Shown: positions 10,190-22,812 of the stretch, piece after piece
Layout of the letters: every line of letters starts with the position of its first letter
Numbering within the stretch: position 1 is the first letter of the stretch
Assembly (NCBI GenBank): GCA_021845665.1
Contig: JAJZVO010000040.1
Coordinates: forward strand, 1 to 38,150
Length of the DNA stretch: 38,150 nt
From: Bacteroidota bacterium
GTDB lineage: Bacteria; Bacteroidota; Ignavibacteria; Kryptoniales; JAKASW01
Reading direction: 5' to 3'
The notes under the pieces: model-generated
Databases searched by the model: none
Seen by the model: the letters and a program-made list of their open reading frames with translations, nothing else
What the model was told of the DNA's origin: nothing
Program-made: the position numbers and the translations under genes

Positions 10190-10317
10190 CGAAAGCGGCG
10201 TAGATCAGCTGGCGTTTTCCCCTTATATATAATCGCAGGAGAGTCACTTGGACAGAGGAACATTTGCCCTTCTGAGCGATGCGTCTAATATCTATCACTT
10301 GGGAAATTAGCGCGCCA

Positions 10318-10548
10318 TTAAAAAGCGGCACCCGCCATAATCGACCACACACCATTTTTGCCGCCGCCGTCCGGCAACGCTGCTGCAAACTCATTCCTGA
10401 ACGGCGAATTAGTCGCGGACGTATGTCTCAACTCGACCCCCAGGCCCATAGGCCCAAGGTCGATATTAGGTCCGCCACCGACAGTAATATTGAAAAGGGA
10501 TTAAGTCGTTGCCCCAATTCCTACAACGCCGATAGGAACGGCTAAAAT
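10318..10548 (-). pseudogene. Remnant of an outer-membrane beta-barrel protein gene (3' end)
   Basis: The minus strand reads downstream from about 10548 as AVPIGVVGIGATT, an in-frame TAA (10503-10501), then about 60 codons including LFNITVGGGPNIDLGPMG, LGVELRHTSATNSPFRNEF and GVWSIMAGAAF before TAA at 10320-10318. Alternating polar and hydrophobic residues, glycine-rich turns and a terminal phenylalanine are typical of the last strands of an outer-membrane barrel. There is no start, an internal stop, and the upstream end runs into a terminator hairpin, so this is a decayed fragment. The specific family is not identifiable. Confidence 0.45.
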
Positions 10549-10549
10549 G

Positions 10550-10577
10550 AAAAAGGGCGTCTTGCAACGCCCCCTTT
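10550..10577 (-). terminator. Rho-independent terminator of the nifJ operon
   Basis: On the minus strand a GGGCGT/ACGCCC stem, extended by flanking A-T pairs, encloses a 6-nt loop and is followed by TTTTTC. It lies 17 nt after the stop of the dihydroorotate-dehydrogenase-like gene. Confidence 0.75.
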
Positions 10578-10593
10578 CGGTAGTGAAGAGGAG

Positions 10594-11592
10594 TCAAACC
10601 AATAGTTTATAACTGTTCAGCGCCTTCACATAGTTGGCACGTTCGAACGCAGCCGGGTCGGCCACGGATTTCTGACTCATACTTCCCTTCATCTGCTCGA
10701 TCGACTCATACTCGTGCTCTTCCATCCACTTTGAAAGATCGGCGAGAACGGTCTTGATGTGTTTAGGGCCGTGCTGTAAGAGTGCCGAGCACAACATGGT
10801 CACATCGGCGCCTGCCATCACGAGTTTCAACACGTCTTCAGCGGTGTGTACTCCGCTCGTCGCCGCAAGGCTCGCCTTCAGCTTGCCGTGCAGGATCGCG
10901 ATCCACCGCATCGGCAGCCTGATTGCAGACGAGTCGCTCATCGTAACATTGGGAACCACTTCCAGTTCGTTCAAATTTATATCAGGCTGATAAAAACGGT
11001 TGAACATAACGAGGCCGTTTGCGCCGGCGCCGACGGCACGCTGCGCGAAGTTTGCCAGCGACCCAAAGTAGGGGCTCAGCTTCACTGCGAGCGGGATGCT
11101 TACCGAATCCCTGACGGCCGAAATCACGTTAATGTATCTTCCCTCGACATCGTACGAGGTCAGATGAGGATCGGTCGGAATGTAATAGACATTGAGCTCC
11201 ATCGCATCGGCTCCGGCCTCTTCGAAATGCCTGGCGTACTTAATCCAGCCGCCCGACGTTATTCCGTTGAGACTCGGTATCACGGGGATGCTCAGCGATT
11301 CCTTCGCCTTTCTCAGGAGTTCTATGTACGAATCCGGCTCCAAGTTGTATTCTTCGGCCTTCGGAAAATAGCTAAGCGCTTCGGCAAAGCTTTCTGTGCC
11401 ATAATGAAGATAGTGGTCGAGTTCCTCGCTCTCATGGGCGATCTCCTCTTCAAACAGCGAGTACATTACGATGGCCGAAGCTCCCGCATCCTCAAGCCTC
11501 TTCATATTGTCAAGGCTCCTGGAGAGCGGGCTGGCCGAGGGGACGATCGGATTCTTCAGCTCTATACCGAGATATTTGGTTTTGAGATTCAT
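10594..11592 (-). CDS. Dihydroorotate dehydrogenase-like (DHOD-like) flavoprotein
   Basis: This 332-residue TIM-barrel flavoprotein resembles class-1 dihydroorotate dehydrogenase. It begins [20 protein letters not shown] and carries [44 protein letters not shown] and an FMN-phosphate region around [18 protein letters not shown]. Members next to pyruvate:ferredoxin oxidoreductase are usually annotated dihydroorotate dehydrogenase-like. They may use ferredoxin or NAD rather than fumarate, and it is not certain that they make orotate. No other pyrimidine genes are here. ATG 11592 is preferred because the domain begins there and a TTG 14 codons upstream overlaps the nifJ stop; no strong ribosome site is visible. 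The gap to nifJ is 38 nt, so the two are co-transcribed. Confidence 0.85.
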
Positions 11593-15780: not shown

Positions 15781-18700
15781 TTAGAAGTTATATCTTGCGC
15801 CGAGTTGCATCTGCCATCGGGAGTAGAACGGATCCGGGGACCAAGGGTGCCCGCTGCTCGGCAACGCGAGCGCGAAGGTCGGCTGGCCTGCCGCGTTCAT
15901 TCCTTCATAGTTCAGCAATCCATACGTACCGTATTCAACCGTCTCAACATATCCCCAATTGTGGTTCAGGAGATTGAGGACGTTGAGGATGTCGAGCGTG
16001 AATTCGAGATTCTGACCAGCAACAGTTGGTATGTCCTCTGCAAGCCGCAGATTCAGCTGGCCGTCCCATGGAGATCTCCCGGCGTTTCGCGGAAAGATCT
16101 GGCCTTTATACTTGCTTAGGTAAGTATCACTGTTGATGTAATTGGCCAACTCGGTGTAAGCAGAGGCGGGTGCGGCAACCCAAGAACCACTCTGTTTAAC
16201 GACAAGGTTAATGTCACCACCAGGAGTAGAATTCTTTGGCACATAAAGGAGGTCGTTGGCATTGGAGCCGTCCCCGTTGACGTCACCATTGTAGATATAG
16301 GAGAACGGCGGACCAGATTCACCGGTGTAGAACAGCGACAGGGTTGTTGCAAACCCGTGAGCGTACTCCACCTCTTCGGAAATCGACGCGACGACCCTGT
16401 TGGGGACTGAGAAATCGGAGACAGCAAGCGGCGGGTTGTTGGGATTCCCCGGGATCGGATTGTACCTCCATTGTGAATAAGCCTGACTCGATGTGACCGC
16501 GTTCTGATCGTAAGATTGGCTGTAAGTATACGACAAGTCGAGGAACATCTCGTCGTTGATCATCTTGTTGCCGAGGATCTGGAATATTCCTTCGCCAAAC
16601 TGCCTGTGGAGCGAAGCAGTAAGATCGTATTCGTAAGGCCTGTTTGTGTTTGTCATATACATGACATCGGTGTAGTTCTTGCTGACCAGATTATAATTCC
16701 AGCCGGGATTATAAGTACCGGCTTTGGGAGTCCCATAGAGCGGCCTGCCACCAAGTCCCACGTAAGTATCAGGCGCGGCGTTGGGAACAATGTTTATGTT
16801 CTGGTACATGACATCGTTGAGCGACTGGCTGAACAGTCCTTCAAGAGTACCCACAAATCCATACGGGAGCGCGTGATCGACAGCAAGGTCGACTCTGAGA
16901 ACCTGGGGCATCCTGAAGTTCGGAGAGGTCATATCGATCTCGGTTGTTGTTATAGGCACGAGTGCACCGCCTGCGACAGGCTGATCAAGCGGATTCGGAT
17001 TGAAGAAACCGCCCGGGAGACCATAGACGCTCAGGCGATTGACGTCAACTCCGGTATTGCTGTATTGATTTGAAATCCAGACGTAAGGCACGCGTCCGGT
17101 AAATACGCCGGCGCCGCCACGGACCACCCACTGCCTGTCGCCATTGATGTCCCAGTTCAACCCGATACGGGGAGAGAAAAGGAACTCGGGTTTCGGAGTC
17201 TGATCCGTCCGCAGACCCATGAACGCGAATGTGGAATCGAAAGTCGGATTGTTGTACGGCTGTGTCGGGAAAGTCGGAACGTCTAGCCTTAAACCGTAAG
17301 TGACTTTCAAATTCTGAATGAGGCTCCATTCGTCCTGAGCGTAGAGGCCATACTGAATCGCACTCCAGTTTGCCATCGGCTGCTGAACGCCCGCGATGTT
17401 TGAGTAGTCGTGCTTGAAATTGTATGGCTGTCCAGCCTCCAGACTCGCGAGACTGTTGAACTGGTAGTAGCCGTAGTAGTCGGGGAGAAACAGGTTGTTG
17501 AATGTGAAAGACTCGTCGTGTGTTCCGAACGTAAGTAGATGCCTGCCGAGTGAAAGAGACAGGTTATCCGTGAGCTCCCAGATGTACTGGTACGTATGGT
17601 TGGCACCCGAGTATTGCTCGCTCCCTGCTACGATGGTTCCCGTCGAAAATCCGGCCGGGTGGTACAGCTCAATCATCGGCATAAGCGGATTCGGCACGAC
17701 GCGATGATCGATTATCGAAGTATAGTTCAGGATTGCTTCGTTAGAGAGATTGGAACCGAACGCGCTGTTGAGCTGCGCGACGATTGAATTCGTCTTGTCG
17801 TTGAATGTGTAAGCCGCGGAGGAGAGGTAAAGAGTATTTGAGCTCCTCGTGATTACATCCTGATTAGCGTTCACAAAGTTATATCTCAGGCTGAGCTTCT
17901 CCGTTTCGGACATATTGTAATCCACTCTCGCGAACACTTTGTTCGACGGAGTGAGCGCTGTATAGGTATTGGCCGTGCCTGGATTAAGACCGTATTTCTG
18001 CTCCAATATGTTCGTGAACTGTTGGATTACAGAATCCGGCGCGCCAGAGATATCCTGATAGGGCTGGCGCTCCCTGTCGATTTCGCCGTTGACGAAGAAG
18101 AAGAGCTTGTTCCTTATGATCGGACCGCCGAGACGGAAGCCTGTCTGAACGTTGCTGAACTTCGGGTAAGGTGTACGGGCCGCATTGGGGCTGAGTCCGA
18201 CAAAGTTCTGATTCTGTCCGAAGAAGTAGATGGATCCGTCGAATCGGTTGGTCCCACTTCTGGTAATGGCGTTGACTTCACCTCCTGTGAAGCCTCCCTG
18301 GCGCACATCGAAAGGCGCAAGCGAGACCTGAAACGTCTGAATGGCATCCAGGCTTATCGGCGTGGTGCCGGCCTGGCCGCCTGGCGTCCCGCTGGATGGA
18401 AGACCAAACAGATCATTGTAGTTCGCACCGTCGATCTGGATGTTGTTATACTTGTTGTTCCTGCCCAACGCGGAGTTGCCCACGAAATCAGGAGAGAGGG
18501 CCTCGAAATCCTGGAAGCTCCTTGTGATAGTGGGAAAGCTCTCAATGAATTTCCTCGATACGGTTGTCGCCGCTCCGGTCCGGTTCGTGTTTGAAAGCCC
18601 GGGCGCGTTTGCTATGACTTCCACTCCACCAACGCTGACTGCCTGCTGGGTGAGTTTGAAATTCAATTCGAGGTTCTGACCGATTTCCAGGAATACGTTC

Positions 18701-18981
18701 TTGACTTCCTGTGTTTTGTAGCCCACGTCGGATACAGTAATTGTGTAAGGACCGCCGACTCTCATACCGCGAATGTAATAGCGGCCATCGAGCTGCGTGC
18801 TGTTACCGTACTTGGTTCCTGACGGGATATGAAGCGCAATCACCGTCGCTCCGGGAACCGGCTGACCGTTTGTATCCTTGACCGTTCCGCTTATCGACGC
18901 AGTTGTGACACCCTGCGCATAAATAGAGACTGGAACGACAAGGAGCAGAGTCAGGAGAAGGAAACCTCGTAACATTTGCAT
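15781..18981 (-). CDS. TonB-dependent receptor, Oar-like, with carboxypeptidase-regulatory-like domain
   Basis: This is a 1066-residue outer-membrane protein. A signal peptide ends at IYAQ. A CarboxypepD_reg-like Ig domain spans about 27-115 (ASISGTVKDTNGQPVPGATV, DGRYYIRGMRVGGPYTITV). A plug follows at about 130-240 (SFQDFEALSPDF, NNIQIDGANYNDLFGLP, FDVRQGGFTGGEVNAITRSG), then a large beta-barrel ending in phenylalanine (MQLGARYNF). This matches Oar-type receptors, which lack a SusD partner; none is encoded here. The family imports or exports large substrates using TonB energy and some members move proteases; the ligand is not predictable. AAAGGAG lies 6 nt before ATG 18981. The gene is monocistronic, bounded by a 1.1-kb gap upstream and tandem hairpins downstream. 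Confidence 0.92.
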   Translation of the reverse strand: MQMLRGFLLLTLLLVVPVSIYAQGVTTASISGTVKDTNGQPVPGATVIALHIPSGTKYGNSTQLDGRYYIRGMRVGGPYTITVSDVGYKTQEVKNVFLEIGQNLELNFKLTQQAVSVGGVEVIANAPGLSNTNRTGAATTVSRKFIESFPTITRSFQDFEALSPDFVGNSALGRNNKYNNIQIDGANYNDLFGLPSSGTPGGQAGTTPISLDAIQTFQVSLAPFDVRQGGFTGGEVNAITRSGTNRFDGSIYFFGQNQNFVGLSPNAARTPYPKFSNVQTGFRLGGPIIRNKLFFFVNGEIDRERQPYQDISGAPDSVIQQFTNILEQKYGLNPGTANTYTALTPSNKVFARVDYNMSETEKLSLRYNFVNANQDVITRSSNTLYLSSAAYTFNDKTNSIVAQLNSAFGSNLSNEAILNYTSIIDHRVVPNPLMPMIELYHPAGFSTGTIVAGSEQYSGANHTYQYIWELTDNLSLSLGRHLLTFGTHDESFTFNNLFLPDYYGYYQFNSLASLEAGQPYNFKHDYSNIAGVQQPMANWSAIQYGLYAQDEWSLIQNLKVTYGLRLDVPTFPTQPYNNPTFDSTFAFMGLRTDQTPKPEFLFSPRIGLNWDINGDRQWVVRGGAGVFTGRVPYVWISNQYSNTGVDVNRLSVYGLPGGFFNPNPLDQPVAGGALVPITTTEIDMTSPNFRMPQVLRVDLAVDHALPYGFVGTLEGLFSQSLNDVMYQNINIVPNAAPDTYVGLGGRPLYGTPKAGTYNPGWNYNLVSKNYTDVMYMTNTNRPYEYDLTASLHRQFGEGIFQILGNKMINDEMFLDLSYTYSQSYDQNAVTSSQAYSQWRYNPIPGNPNNPPLAVSDFSVPNRVVASISEEVEYAHGFATTLSLFYTGESGPPFSYIYNGDVNGDGSNANDLLYVPKNSTPGGDINLVVKQSGSWVAAPASAYTELANYINSDTYLSKYKGQIFPRNAGRSPWDGQLNLRLAEDIPTVAGQNLEFTLDILNVLNLLNHNWGYVETVEYGTYGLLNYEGMNAAGQPTFALALPSSGHPWSPDPFYSRWQMQLGARYNF

Positions 18982-20119: not shown

Positions 20120-20896
20120 TCAGCCGAAACGGCCGGTTATGTAGTCTTCGGTCTGTTTCTTCTTAGGCCTTGTGAACATGTCGCGCGTGCCGCTGAATTC
20201 AATGAGCTCGCCGATGTAGAAGAACGCGGTGTTGTCGCTGACACGTGCCGCCTGCTGCATGTTGTGAGTCACGATGACGATAGTGTATTTGTCTTTCAGT
20301 TGGAAAATAAGTTCCTCGATCTTTGCAGTCGAAAGAGGGTCGAGAGCCGAAGCGGGTTCGTCCATGAGGATAACTTCGGGACCGACCGCGAGGGTTCTCG
20401 CTATGCAGAGTCTTTGCTGCTGACCGCCGGACAGACTCGCGCCCGATTTCTTAAGCGAGTCCTTCACTTCATCCCACAAGGCCGCCTGGACAAGGGTTTT
20501 CTCGACGACCTCGTCAAGTTCTTTCCGTTTGTGTCTACCGGTGAGCTTCAGGCCAGCGACGACATTGTCGTAGATTGACATCGACGGGAATGGGTTCGGT
20601 TTCTGGAAGACCATGCCGATTTTCTTTCTTACGAGGACGGGGTCGACGCCGGAAGCGTAGATATCCGTTCCATCGACCAGCACCCTACCCATGATCCGCG
20701 CATCGCGAGCGAGCTCATGCATTCGGTTCAAGGTTCTGAGGAACGTCGTCTTCCCGCAGCCGGATGGGCCGATGAAAGCTGTGACCATCGACTTGGGGAT
20801 TGAGATGCTGATTCCCTTGAGTACCTGGACTTTTCCAAAATAGGCCTTGAGATCTTCGGTGACAATGCCAGTCGTATATTCAGGTGTAGTGGTCAT
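20120..20896 (-). CDS. pstB: Phosphate ABC transporter ATP-binding protein
   Basis: This 258-residue ABC ATPase of the PstB subfamily has Walker [18 protein letters not shown], the Q-loop in [17 protein letters not shown] (diagnostic for PstB), signature [16 protein letters not shown], Walker [14 protein letters not shown], and the switch histidine in [14 protein letters not shown]. It powers high-affinity phosphate import through PstC-PstA at the inner membrane. The ATG overlaps the pstA stop (ATGA at 20896-20893), indicating translational coupling. It is the last gene of the run; no phoU follows, and only decayed sequence lies downstream. No clear terminator is visible after the stop. Confidence 0.96.
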
Positions 20897-21747
20897 ACAG
20901 AATGCTCATCTTTCTGTCTTGAGAAGGCCCTCATTCCAAGATTTGCGATCAGTATCGCGAGAACCAAGACCAGTGCGCCCGCCCATGCCTGGCGGTGCCA
21001 GTCTCTATAAGGAGATATCGCATAGTTGAATATCTGAACCGGCAACGTCGAAATCGGCTGAGTCAGGCTGTAGCTGAAGAAGGCATTGTTGAAGCTCGTG
21101 AAAAGCAGGGGTGCGGTCTCGCCGAGGACTCTGGCGCCCGCCAGGAGTATTCCAGTTATGATGCCGCTTTTGGCACTCCTTAATATGACCGAGAGTACAG
21201 TCCGCCAATAAGGGACACCGAGAGCGAGCGAAGCCTCGCGTATTGAGTTGGGCACAGTCTGCAGGATCTCATCGGTTGTACGCAGAACCGTAGGAATCAT
21301 CATGACGCCGAGGGCAAATCCACCCGCGAGGACGCTGAAGCTTTTCATCGGGAGGACAACCACGGTGTACGCGAAGACGCCCATTACGATCGACGGTGTG
21401 CCGTTGAGGACGTCGGCGACGAACCGGACGACATTGGAGAATTTCGCTTGTGGGAATTCTCCAAGGAAGATTCCGCCGAAGAGTCCGATCGGGATCCCGA
21501 TGAGCGCCGCGATTCCGACGACGTATGCGGAGCCGATGATCGCATTGGCCATTCCTCCTCCCGGTTCGCCGACAGGGGCAGGCCTGTGAAGCAAGAAGTT
21601 CATGTTGACCGAAGCGGCACCCTTATAGAAAAGATACCCTACGATCAGAATAAGCGGGAGAAGCACCACGAGCATGCTCGAAGAGAAAAGGGCTGTAAAA
21701 AAGCCGCTCGATATTTTCCGGCGCCAGTAGGAGAAACCGCTCCCCAC
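20893..21747 (-). CDS. pstA: Phosphate ABC transporter permease PstA
   Basis: This membrane permease has about six helices and the BPD-type EAA loop in [21 protein letters not shown]. Other PstA features are [14 protein letters not shown] and [20 protein letters not shown] favour the GTG at 21747 (284 residues), which has AGGA 8 nt upstream, follows the pstC stop by 14 nt and begins just before the YWRRK basic patch. Alternatives are TTG 21786 with AAGG 8 nt upstream and GTG 21795, both overlapping pstC; the extra residues are acidic and unlike a PstA start. It forms the channel with PstC. Confidence 0.93.
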
Positions 21748-21761
21748 AAGGACCGTCCTGC

Positions 21762-22730
21762 CTACAGCGCTTTGGTCGTCCGCCAAATCAACCACCTTGC
21801 AATCGCATTAACTATTAGAGTAATCAAAAGAAGAATGAAGGCTATTGCAATCAACGCAGACAGATAGGAAGTATAGGTTGCCTCCGTGAACTCATTCGCG
21901 ATGACTGCGGCCATCGTATATCCGGGTTGAAAGAGTGATTCGGTTATCTTGGGAGTATTCCCGATAACCATAGTAACCGCCATTGTTTCGCCAAGTGCTC
22001 TAGCGAGTGCGAGAACTATCGAGCCCAGAATTCCGCTTCTGGCGAAAGGAAGTGCGATCTTCTTAAGAGTTTCCCAACGAGTCGCGCCGAGAGCGTACAT
22101 GCCTTCCTTCAGAGGGACAGGAACGGTGCGGAGCACTTCCGTTGAGACAGATATAATGAAGGGCACAATCATAATCGCAAGTATCAATGAAGCCGTAAGG
22201 AAACCGATGCCGAGTGCATAGCCTTTGAAGAACGGGAGATAGCCGAAATTGTTCTGAAGGAAAGGTTCCACGACATTTGCCATCAAAGGCGAGAGGACGA
22301 AGATACCCCAGAGGCCATAAATGACGCTCGGTATTCCTGCAAGAAGTTCGACGAGCGGCTGCAAAAGCTTCGTGAGCCATTTCGGCGCAAGCTCAGCCAG
22401 AAATATCGCGGTACCTATTCCGAGCGGCGTCGCGATCAGGAGTGCGAGGAACGACGTTACGAGAGTTCCGTAAATGAACGGAAGGGCACCGAAGACTTCG
22501 CTTACCGGGTTCCAGGTGGTCCCTTTTACAAAATTCCAGAAGCCTGCATTTGCAAACGCTTCGCGAGAAGACAAATATAGCTCGATGCCGAGCCAAACCA
22601 ACAAGACGATGACAAGAAAGGCAAAAAAACCGAGCACGGCCTTGAAAACCGCATCGGCTCTTATGAAAGATTTTCGTTCGACCTTGAGCGGTCCCGCAAT
22701 AGCTCCTGCATTCTCTATTTCGACAGCCAT
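21762..22730 (-). CDS. pstC: Phosphate ABC transporter permease PstC
   Basis: This 322-residue permease has a cytoplasmic N-tail, a first helix at about 30-50, and five further helices. It shows PstC hallmarks: GTTWNPVSEVFGALPFIYGT, the LLAGIPSVIYGLWG loop and the EAA motif KEGMYALGATRWETLKKIAL. It is first in pstC-pstA-pstB. The expected upstream pstS (periplasmic phosphate binder) is missing; instead the gene for a VWA protein ends 82 nt upstream. There is no Shine-Dalgarno at usable distance from ATG 22730, and the promoter core lies only 6 nt upstream, suggesting a leaderless mRNA under Pho control. Confidence 0.95.
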   Translation of the reverse strand: MAVEIENAGAIAGPLKVERKSFIRADAVFKAVLGFFAFLVIVLLVWLGIELYLSSREAFANAGFWNFVKGTTWNPVSEVFGALPFIYGTLVTSFLALLIATPLGIGTAIFLAELAPKWLTKLLQPLVELLAGIPSVIYGLWGIFVLSPLMANVVEPFLQNNFGYLPFFKGYALGIGFLTASLILAIMIVPFIISVSTEVLRTVPVPLKEGMYALGATRWETLKKIALPFARSGILGSIVLALARALGETMAVTMVIGNTPKITESLFQPGYTMAAVIANEFTEATYTSYLSALIAIAFILLLITLIVNAIARWLIWRTTKAL

Positions 22731-22734
22731 CCTA

Positions 22735-22790
22735 TAAAATTATCCAGGGGCATTTACTTGGAGGTTAATTTAATATTAAGGAATTGTTAA
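22735..22790 (-). promoter_or_regulatory. Probable Pho box and promoter of pstCAB
   Basis: On the minus strand three hexamers, TTAACA (22790-22785), TTAATA (22779-22774) and TTAACC (22768-22763), recur with an exact 11-nt period, the spacing of PhoB/PhoP direct repeats. The last repeat ends in the place of the -33 element: its TTAA is 20 nt upstream of GATAATTT (22744-22737). Activator repeats replacing the upstream promoter element is the classical Pho-regulon layout. The core element lies 6 nt before the pstC ATG. Confidence 0.6.
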
Positions 22791-22812
22791 GCGAATTTGA
22801 TGCCAGTGTTAA

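Follow-up and report, generated by a model that had tools for sequence, protein, structure and literature searches.

A repeat array upstream of pstC in a Kryptoniales bacterium, a probable Pho box in phase with a Bacteroidota-type -7 element

The phosphate regulons of proteobacteria, firmicutes, actinobacteria and cyanobacteria have been mapped in detail; in the Bacteroidota, the sigma factor and the promoters differ. The locus described here carries a tandem repeat in front of phosphate transport genes. It lies in a 38,150-nucleotide stretch of DNA (contig JAJZVO010000040.1, hereafter the window) from a Bacteroidota bacterium of the class Ignavibacteria, order Kryptoniales. The genes form a pstC-pstA-pstB operon, with which neither pstS nor phoU was seen:

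21762..22730, minus strand, pstC, phosphate ABC transporter permease (NCBIfam TIGR02138, E 6.7e-98, above cut-off)
20893..21795, minus strand, pstA-like permease, overlapping pstC (Pfam BPD_transp_1; operon position)
20120..20896, minus strand, pstB-like ATPase (Pfam ABC_tran, E 1.2e-30; operon position)

Downstream of the operon, on the same strand, lies the gene of a large TonB-dependent/OMP_b-brl_4 receptor (15781-18981), an order that recalls the TonB receptors found behind arrays in other genomes; no array of its own scoring 9 or more was found. Upstream, a gene for a von Willebrand/MG2 protein runs in the same direction as far as 22813, where it adjoins the first weak unit of the array. 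On the minus strand, the DNA 5′ of the gene starting at 22730 reads TTAACACTGGC ATCAAATTCGC TTAACAATTCC TTAATATTAAA TTAACCTCCAA GTAAATGCCCC TGGATAATTTTATAGG, followed by ATG, and contains these features:

22807..22812, minus strand, TTAACA, possible in-phase unit -1, which immediately follows the upstream gene's stop codon
22796..22801, minus strand, ATCAAA, weak in-phase unit 0 (GTCAAA in most relatives)
22785..22790, minus strand, TTAACA, Pho half-site 1, predicted at -60 to -55
22774..22779, minus strand, TTAATA, Pho half-site 2, predicted at -49 to -44
22763..22768, minus strand, TTAACC, Pho half-site 3, predicted at -38 to -33, the place of the -33 element
22752..22757, minus strand, GTAAAT, degenerate in-phase half-site 4, predicted at -27 to -22, conserved in the genus
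22737-22744, minus strand, GATAATTT
22735..22742, minus strand, -7 element TAATTTTA (TAnnTT; the final G of TAnnTTTG is absent)
22730, minus strand, A of the pstC ATG, the predicted transcription start

The original prediction described TTAACA, TTAATA and TTAACC recurring at exactly 11-nt spacing, and the minus-strand coordinates give 11 and 11. It also set the third repeat 20 nt before GATAATTT; the actual distance is 18 nt, and 20 nt is reached if the count runs from the TA of TAATTTTA. The in-phase fourth unit, GTAAAT, and the two weaker upstream ones had gone without mention. A Pho box needs two or more direct repeats that recur every 11 nt, and the array holds three strong units and a degenerate fourth. 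The half-sites follow TTAAC(A/C), and likeness to GTCA appears only in the weaker units. No -33 element is evident in the sequence of the pstC promoter.

For promoter numbering, the T of the -7 element was set at -12, as in Flavobacterium johnsoniae, for which a -7 consensus of TAnnTTTG and transcription starts 12 nt after that T are reported (PMC6847099). By this numbering, half-site 3 spans -38 to -33, half-site 4 spans -27 to -22, and +1 coincides with the start codon of pstC. Because an in-frame TAA lies inside the -7 element TAATTTTA of the window, pstC cannot start further upstream, and a leaderless mRNA is predicted, with transcription probably starting at the start codon itself. Leaderless mRNAs account for 5.5% in the report on Flavobacterium psychrophilum (PMC9723704). 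Judged from sequence, the array is very probably a PhoB Pho box that replaces the -33 element, is phase-locked to a Bacteroidota-type -7 element and switches on pstCAB.

The array is conserved. The genus set comprises 13 genomes, in 11 of which pstC was detected (in G005 it is missing where a contig ends inside pstB), and the repeat is present in all 11 orthologous pst promoters found, as the original prediction would have it. The array is gapless in each of them, TAnnTT is retained and half-site 3 always lies 20 nt from TAnnTT; measured from the first T of half-site 1, the start codon is 60 nt away in 10 genomes and 61 nt in G006. Within half-site 1, TAAC is invariant and the first T is found in 10/11 promoters; TTAA is invariant (11/11) in half-sites 2 and 3, with the fifth base of half-site 2 being C rather than T in 9/11. 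Further upstream, unit 0 has T as its second base in 10/11 promoters and A as its fourth, also in 10/11, and unit -1 retains TTAAC in 5/11. The TA and TT of the -7 element are invariant (11/11), with the G of TAnnTTTG in place in 0/11 pst promoters. Across 195 upstream regions of the genus, TAHHTTTG occurs 7 times in the forward orientation versus 2 in reverse, too few cases for a consensus, so that TAnnTT is the sole support for the -7 type of the genus; TAnnTTGT, which resembles the SM5 box of F. psychrophilum, fits some porin and pstSb promoters.

One genome, G002, carries the pst promoter on two contigs that share 104 identical bases, spanning the box and the start of pstC. One contig has the normal upstream gene and the other an integrase and phage-like genes, and the tyrosine-integrase gene (Phage_integrase) abuts the pst promoter (L061, C15 ~10191-11464; L060, C39 1-106). 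In G002, the region of the Pho box thus seems to serve as the attachment site of an integrative element, whose insertion keeps an in-phase array.

Phosphate genes elsewhere in the window's genome bear similar arrays. Contig C16 holds a cluster of two PstS proteins (both above the TIGR00975 cut-off), a porin whose match to Porin_O_P is weak (E 0.012, below cut-off), an exopolyphosphatase, CHAD and SixA proteins and a polyphosphate kinase. When the genome was searched with a loose form of the pattern, 4 of the 6 matches preceded phosphate genes, namely pstC, the porin of a porin-pstS pair, the second pstS (pstSb) and ppk, which places boxes at several phosphate-uptake loci in one genome. The distance from half-site 3 to TAnnTT is 20 nt alike at the pstC, porin and second pstS promoters. 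The search proposed earlier, for TTAAnn repeats of 11-nt period upstream of other phosphate genes, was thus successful in the same genome and in its relatives.

For the relatives, a unit matrix built from pst sites only was used to score upstream regions, with 60 shuffles each. The box is found at the porin promoter in 12/12 genomes with upstream sequence and at the pstSb promoter in 12/13 (not G001), and 0/60 shuffles reach each of these scores. TAnnTT sits at the pst-type offset in 12/12 porin sites and in the 11/11 directly comparable pstSb sites, with G008 one unit out of register, so that the distance to the -7 element is fixed (20 nt at pst, porin and pstSb) and the array covers the -33 place. 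In porin promoters, the position of half-site 4 reads GTTACA, GTTATA or GTCACA; pstSa follows close behind the porin and has no box of its own. Most of the arrays that score 9 or more in 420,566 bases of genus DNA belong to pstC, porin or pstSb. Arrays scoring 20.3 (G003, L174 1638-1670) and 11.0 (G000, L056 17680) occur at similar places, the latter ~68 nt upstream of a 97-aa ORF. In G008 (L065 4075-10170), genes for a 347-aa protein with its own array, an exopolyphosphatase and a polyphosphate kinase stand directly before pstCAB.

A profile of the pst sites run over the 13 genomes returned 12 strong matches, the 11 pstC promoters and the second copy in G002, and 18 weak ones, of which 4, including the best two, are at porin or pstS promoters, one of these being a pstSb promoter of a relative. 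The best non-pst matches are the porin promoters of G006 and G005 (E 0.0019 and 0.037). In the window's own genome, where 150 of 1076 candidates were scored, this profile missed the porin, pstSb and ppk sites at E <= 5 and brought no further regulon member above noise, the second match being on contig C126. With the unit matrix, no such array was found upstream of the PPX, CHAD and SixA genes; the G011 PPX region (1.7) beats its shuffles and is far below the boxes.

The polyphosphate kinase gene behaves differently. PPK1 is encoded (E <= 1e-100) in 8/13 genus genomes, upstream of which there is a strong triple in G000 and G012, a strong pair in G008, a weaker pair in G006, a degenerate array in G003 and none in G001, G005 and G011. 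A TTAAC pair (L056 8753-8780; L194-L201) is conserved in G000, G012 and G008 and, more weakly, in G006, and the likely -7 element, placed by eye, is 8 nt closer than in the pst type in G000, G012, G003 and G008. This mixture rules out ppk as a conserved genus-wide member; it is probably a lineage-limited member with another geometry.

The genome also encodes the expected two-component system. A PhoB-like regulator, a PhoR-like kinase and PhoU are encoded in a row on contig C92. The PhoB and PnpS/PhoR models rank first for the pair with scores below their equivalog cut-offs; for the regulator, PhoB is the top NCBIfam match, yet at 245.8 bits against a cut-off of 296.2. No PhoB orthologue was found in G004, G005 and G007, all three of which keep the boxes. 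We read these absences as assembly gaps and not as counter-evidence, a reading that is not proven for G004: the G007 contig ends where synteny with G002 would reach phoB, and in both G004 and G005 the contig breaks off no more than ~3 kb from tilS, which lies beside phoB in G000. Autoregulation of phoBR through a box was considered and rejected, as none lies within 250 nt upstream of phoB in 9/9 genomes scanned (the G011 locus left out); the unit matrix likewise found no box in the PhoR upstream regions of the relatives.

The same phase extends beyond the genus. The loci scanned outside it were 98 pst loci, 19 of the same class or order and 79 from named records of many phyla. Of the 196 strand scans, 30 score above the 99th percentile of shuffles (~2 expected), and most of the top ones lie in front of porin, pstS or pst genes, either in same-class genomes or in records with Bacteroidetes or Ignavibacteria in the title. 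In these loci, one residue of 11 is common to 15/28 TAnnTT motifs downstream of the array versus 1/17 upstream. Three same-class genomes of one family (L036, L037, L038) have strong TTAAC arrays near pstS or pstC, with TG where the TA of the -7 element is expected.

A survey of 391 genomes of the class, for three TTAAY repeats followed by TANNTTTG after a gap of any length from 8 to 36 nt, gave 100 matches in 74 genomes versus 11 for a reversed control (summed by eye). Merging left 90 sites, 74 of them with a gap of exactly 10, 21 or 32 nt (43, 26 and 5 sites by shortest gap), counts that are not of independent events because sites within one genus or family are related by descent. The window's own site, with a gap of 21, falls outside the matches since its -7 element lacks the final G. 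On balance we favour a class-wide Bacteroidota design, in which 11-bp TTAAY arrays would end 10, 21 or 32 nt before TAnnTTTG, PhoB and sigma factor would meet on one face of the helix, and pstC would be leaderless in the genus.

For 30 of the 100 matches the next gene was listed. TonB-dependent receptors are the commonest, with 13 (L205, L207, L210, L211, L215-L219, L222, L229-L231), followed by 4 PstS-like proteins, 3 glycosyltransferase-like proteins, 2 Porin_O_P porins, a TPR protein, an acyltransferase/acetyltransferase fusion and a GCV_H protein, whose gap is out of phase; 4 are without a Pfam match (one porin-like by eye) and 1 site has no ORF. The fusion (L212, 3-1472), preceded by an in-phase array, combines Acyltransf_2 and Acetyltransf_5, which we take to be the domain make-up of ornithine-lipid synthases; that identity would fit phosphorus-sparing membranes. 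The phoBR operon of Flavobacterium includes a TonB receptor that is reported to be strongly induced at low phosphate (PMC8115612).

Could the array be a chance recurrence in AT-rich intergenic DNA? With up to two mismatches, the pattern has 6 matches in the whole 4.64-Mb genome versus 10 for the reversed control, a frequency that would suit chance; by count the pattern is not rare, and the count alone is no evidence. What sets it apart is its position, because the 4 matches at phosphate genes lie just upstream of them. Within the window, TTAACN6TTAACN6TTAAC with at most one mismatch occurs once, where shuffling predicts no occurrence (mean 0.00 over 100 shuffles). Retention in every orthologous pst promoter and the phase of the 74 class-wide sites rule chance out, and we leave it next to no probability.

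Two further readings accept the array as a regulatory site. Another response regulator of the OmpR family, ArcA-like or PhoP-like, might bind it, in which case control would not, or not only, be by phosphate and PhoB. Six further Trans_reg_C regulators are encoded in the genome, many class-wide sites precede TonB-dependent receptors without an assigned substrate, and the PhoP motif of Riemerella anatipestifer, TTTAACA, is reported to resemble the ArcA motif and has been tied to other targets (PMC9603813). Against this, the genus boxes stand at pstC, the porin-pstSa pair, pstSb and partly ppk, and just one of the seven regulators was seen beside a PhoR-like kinase and PhoU, which makes control by another regulator unlikely. 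Alternatively, the box might repress, or merely tune, a promoter that is active without it. Sequence by itself does not give the sign of regulation, and the generally weak -33 motifs of F. johnsoniae (PMC6847099) soften any argument from the absence of one here; the array nevertheless lies upstream of the -7 element, in the position of an activator, at a promoter with no evident -33 element, and we regard repression or tuning as very improbable.

Activation by PhoB, the reading we prefer, would proceed as follows. Under phosphate starvation, PhoR would phosphorylate PhoB, and head-to-tail PhoB dimers, one per 22 bp, would fill the array of 11-bp half-sites, three of them strong, a fourth degenerate and possibly two more upstream. 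The dimers would stack along one face of the helix, with the promoter-proximal dimer standing in for the -33 contact. Because the array ends at the -33 place and shares the helical phase of TAnnTT, bound PhoB could keep the primary sigma factor in place even though no -33 element is evident, and so turn on pstCAB; the porin-pstSa operon and pstSb would be driven by the same architecture. The original prediction of a PhoB/PhoP-type Pho box replacing the -33 element gains support from the 11/11 pst promoters, from the boxes at other phosphate genes and from half-site 3 at -38 to -33.

If the class-wide design is true, Pho regulons, including TonB-dependent receptors and genes for phosphorus-free lipids, could be read from sequence in uncultured Bacteroidota. 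With the spacing rule between repeat and promoter, genes of the phosphorus response can be predicted from uncultured genomes of this poorly studied group, and the strict phase makes PhoB activation of a divergent RNA polymerase directly testable.

Among known systems, the PhoP box of Bacillus subtilis has TTAACA-like repeats at 11-nt spacing, with four units in the core promoter region, and works at sigma-A promoters with a TATAAT-type -10. Half-sites and spacing are alike in the window, whereas the -10 type differs. The Escherichia coli Pho box stands in place of the -35 element and, like the window array, consists of 11-nt direct repeats before pst genes. E. coli PhoB binds tandem 11-nt units, two to a box, of the CTGTCAT type (PMC4415409, PMC1906773), with the box ~10 bp upstream of the -10 element (PMC1906773). 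In the window, by contrast, the core is TTAAC and not TGTCA, the CTGTCAT half-site consensus is not found in the array, and 8 nt separate the last 8-mer from TA, as opposed to 10 bp. Closer in descent, the R. anatipestifer PhoP motif comes from the same phylum and shares the type of regulator, a response regulator, and the TTAACA core, but it is ArcA-like with other targets, and no tandem phase rule appears in the available part of that report (PMC9603813). With this TTTAACA motif in print, the earlier statement that Pho boxes are poorly defined in the lineage is only partly right.

The box type itself is already known, since Pho boxes of TTAA repeats occur in cyanobacteria. There, the SphR/PhoB box has the consensus CTTAACCT and comprises three tandem 8-mers with 3-nt linkers (PMC1906773, PMC11126600), an arrangement also present in the window as CTTAACAA ttc CTTAATAT taa ATTAACCT. 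In Synechocystis, mutation of any of the three TTAA repeats is reported to cut PhoB binding in vitro (PMC11126600). The two boxes have in common the TTAA core, the 11-nt period, at least three tandem units and a place upstream of pst genes. The new part is the phase-locking of the box to the Bacteroidota -7 element; in the literature searched, as far as its available parts go, no Pho box was recognised as defined relative to that element. Unlike the cyanobacterial box, the window array stands in fixed helical phase with a Bacteroidota-type TAnnTT, and the pstC mRNA behind it is probably leaderless.
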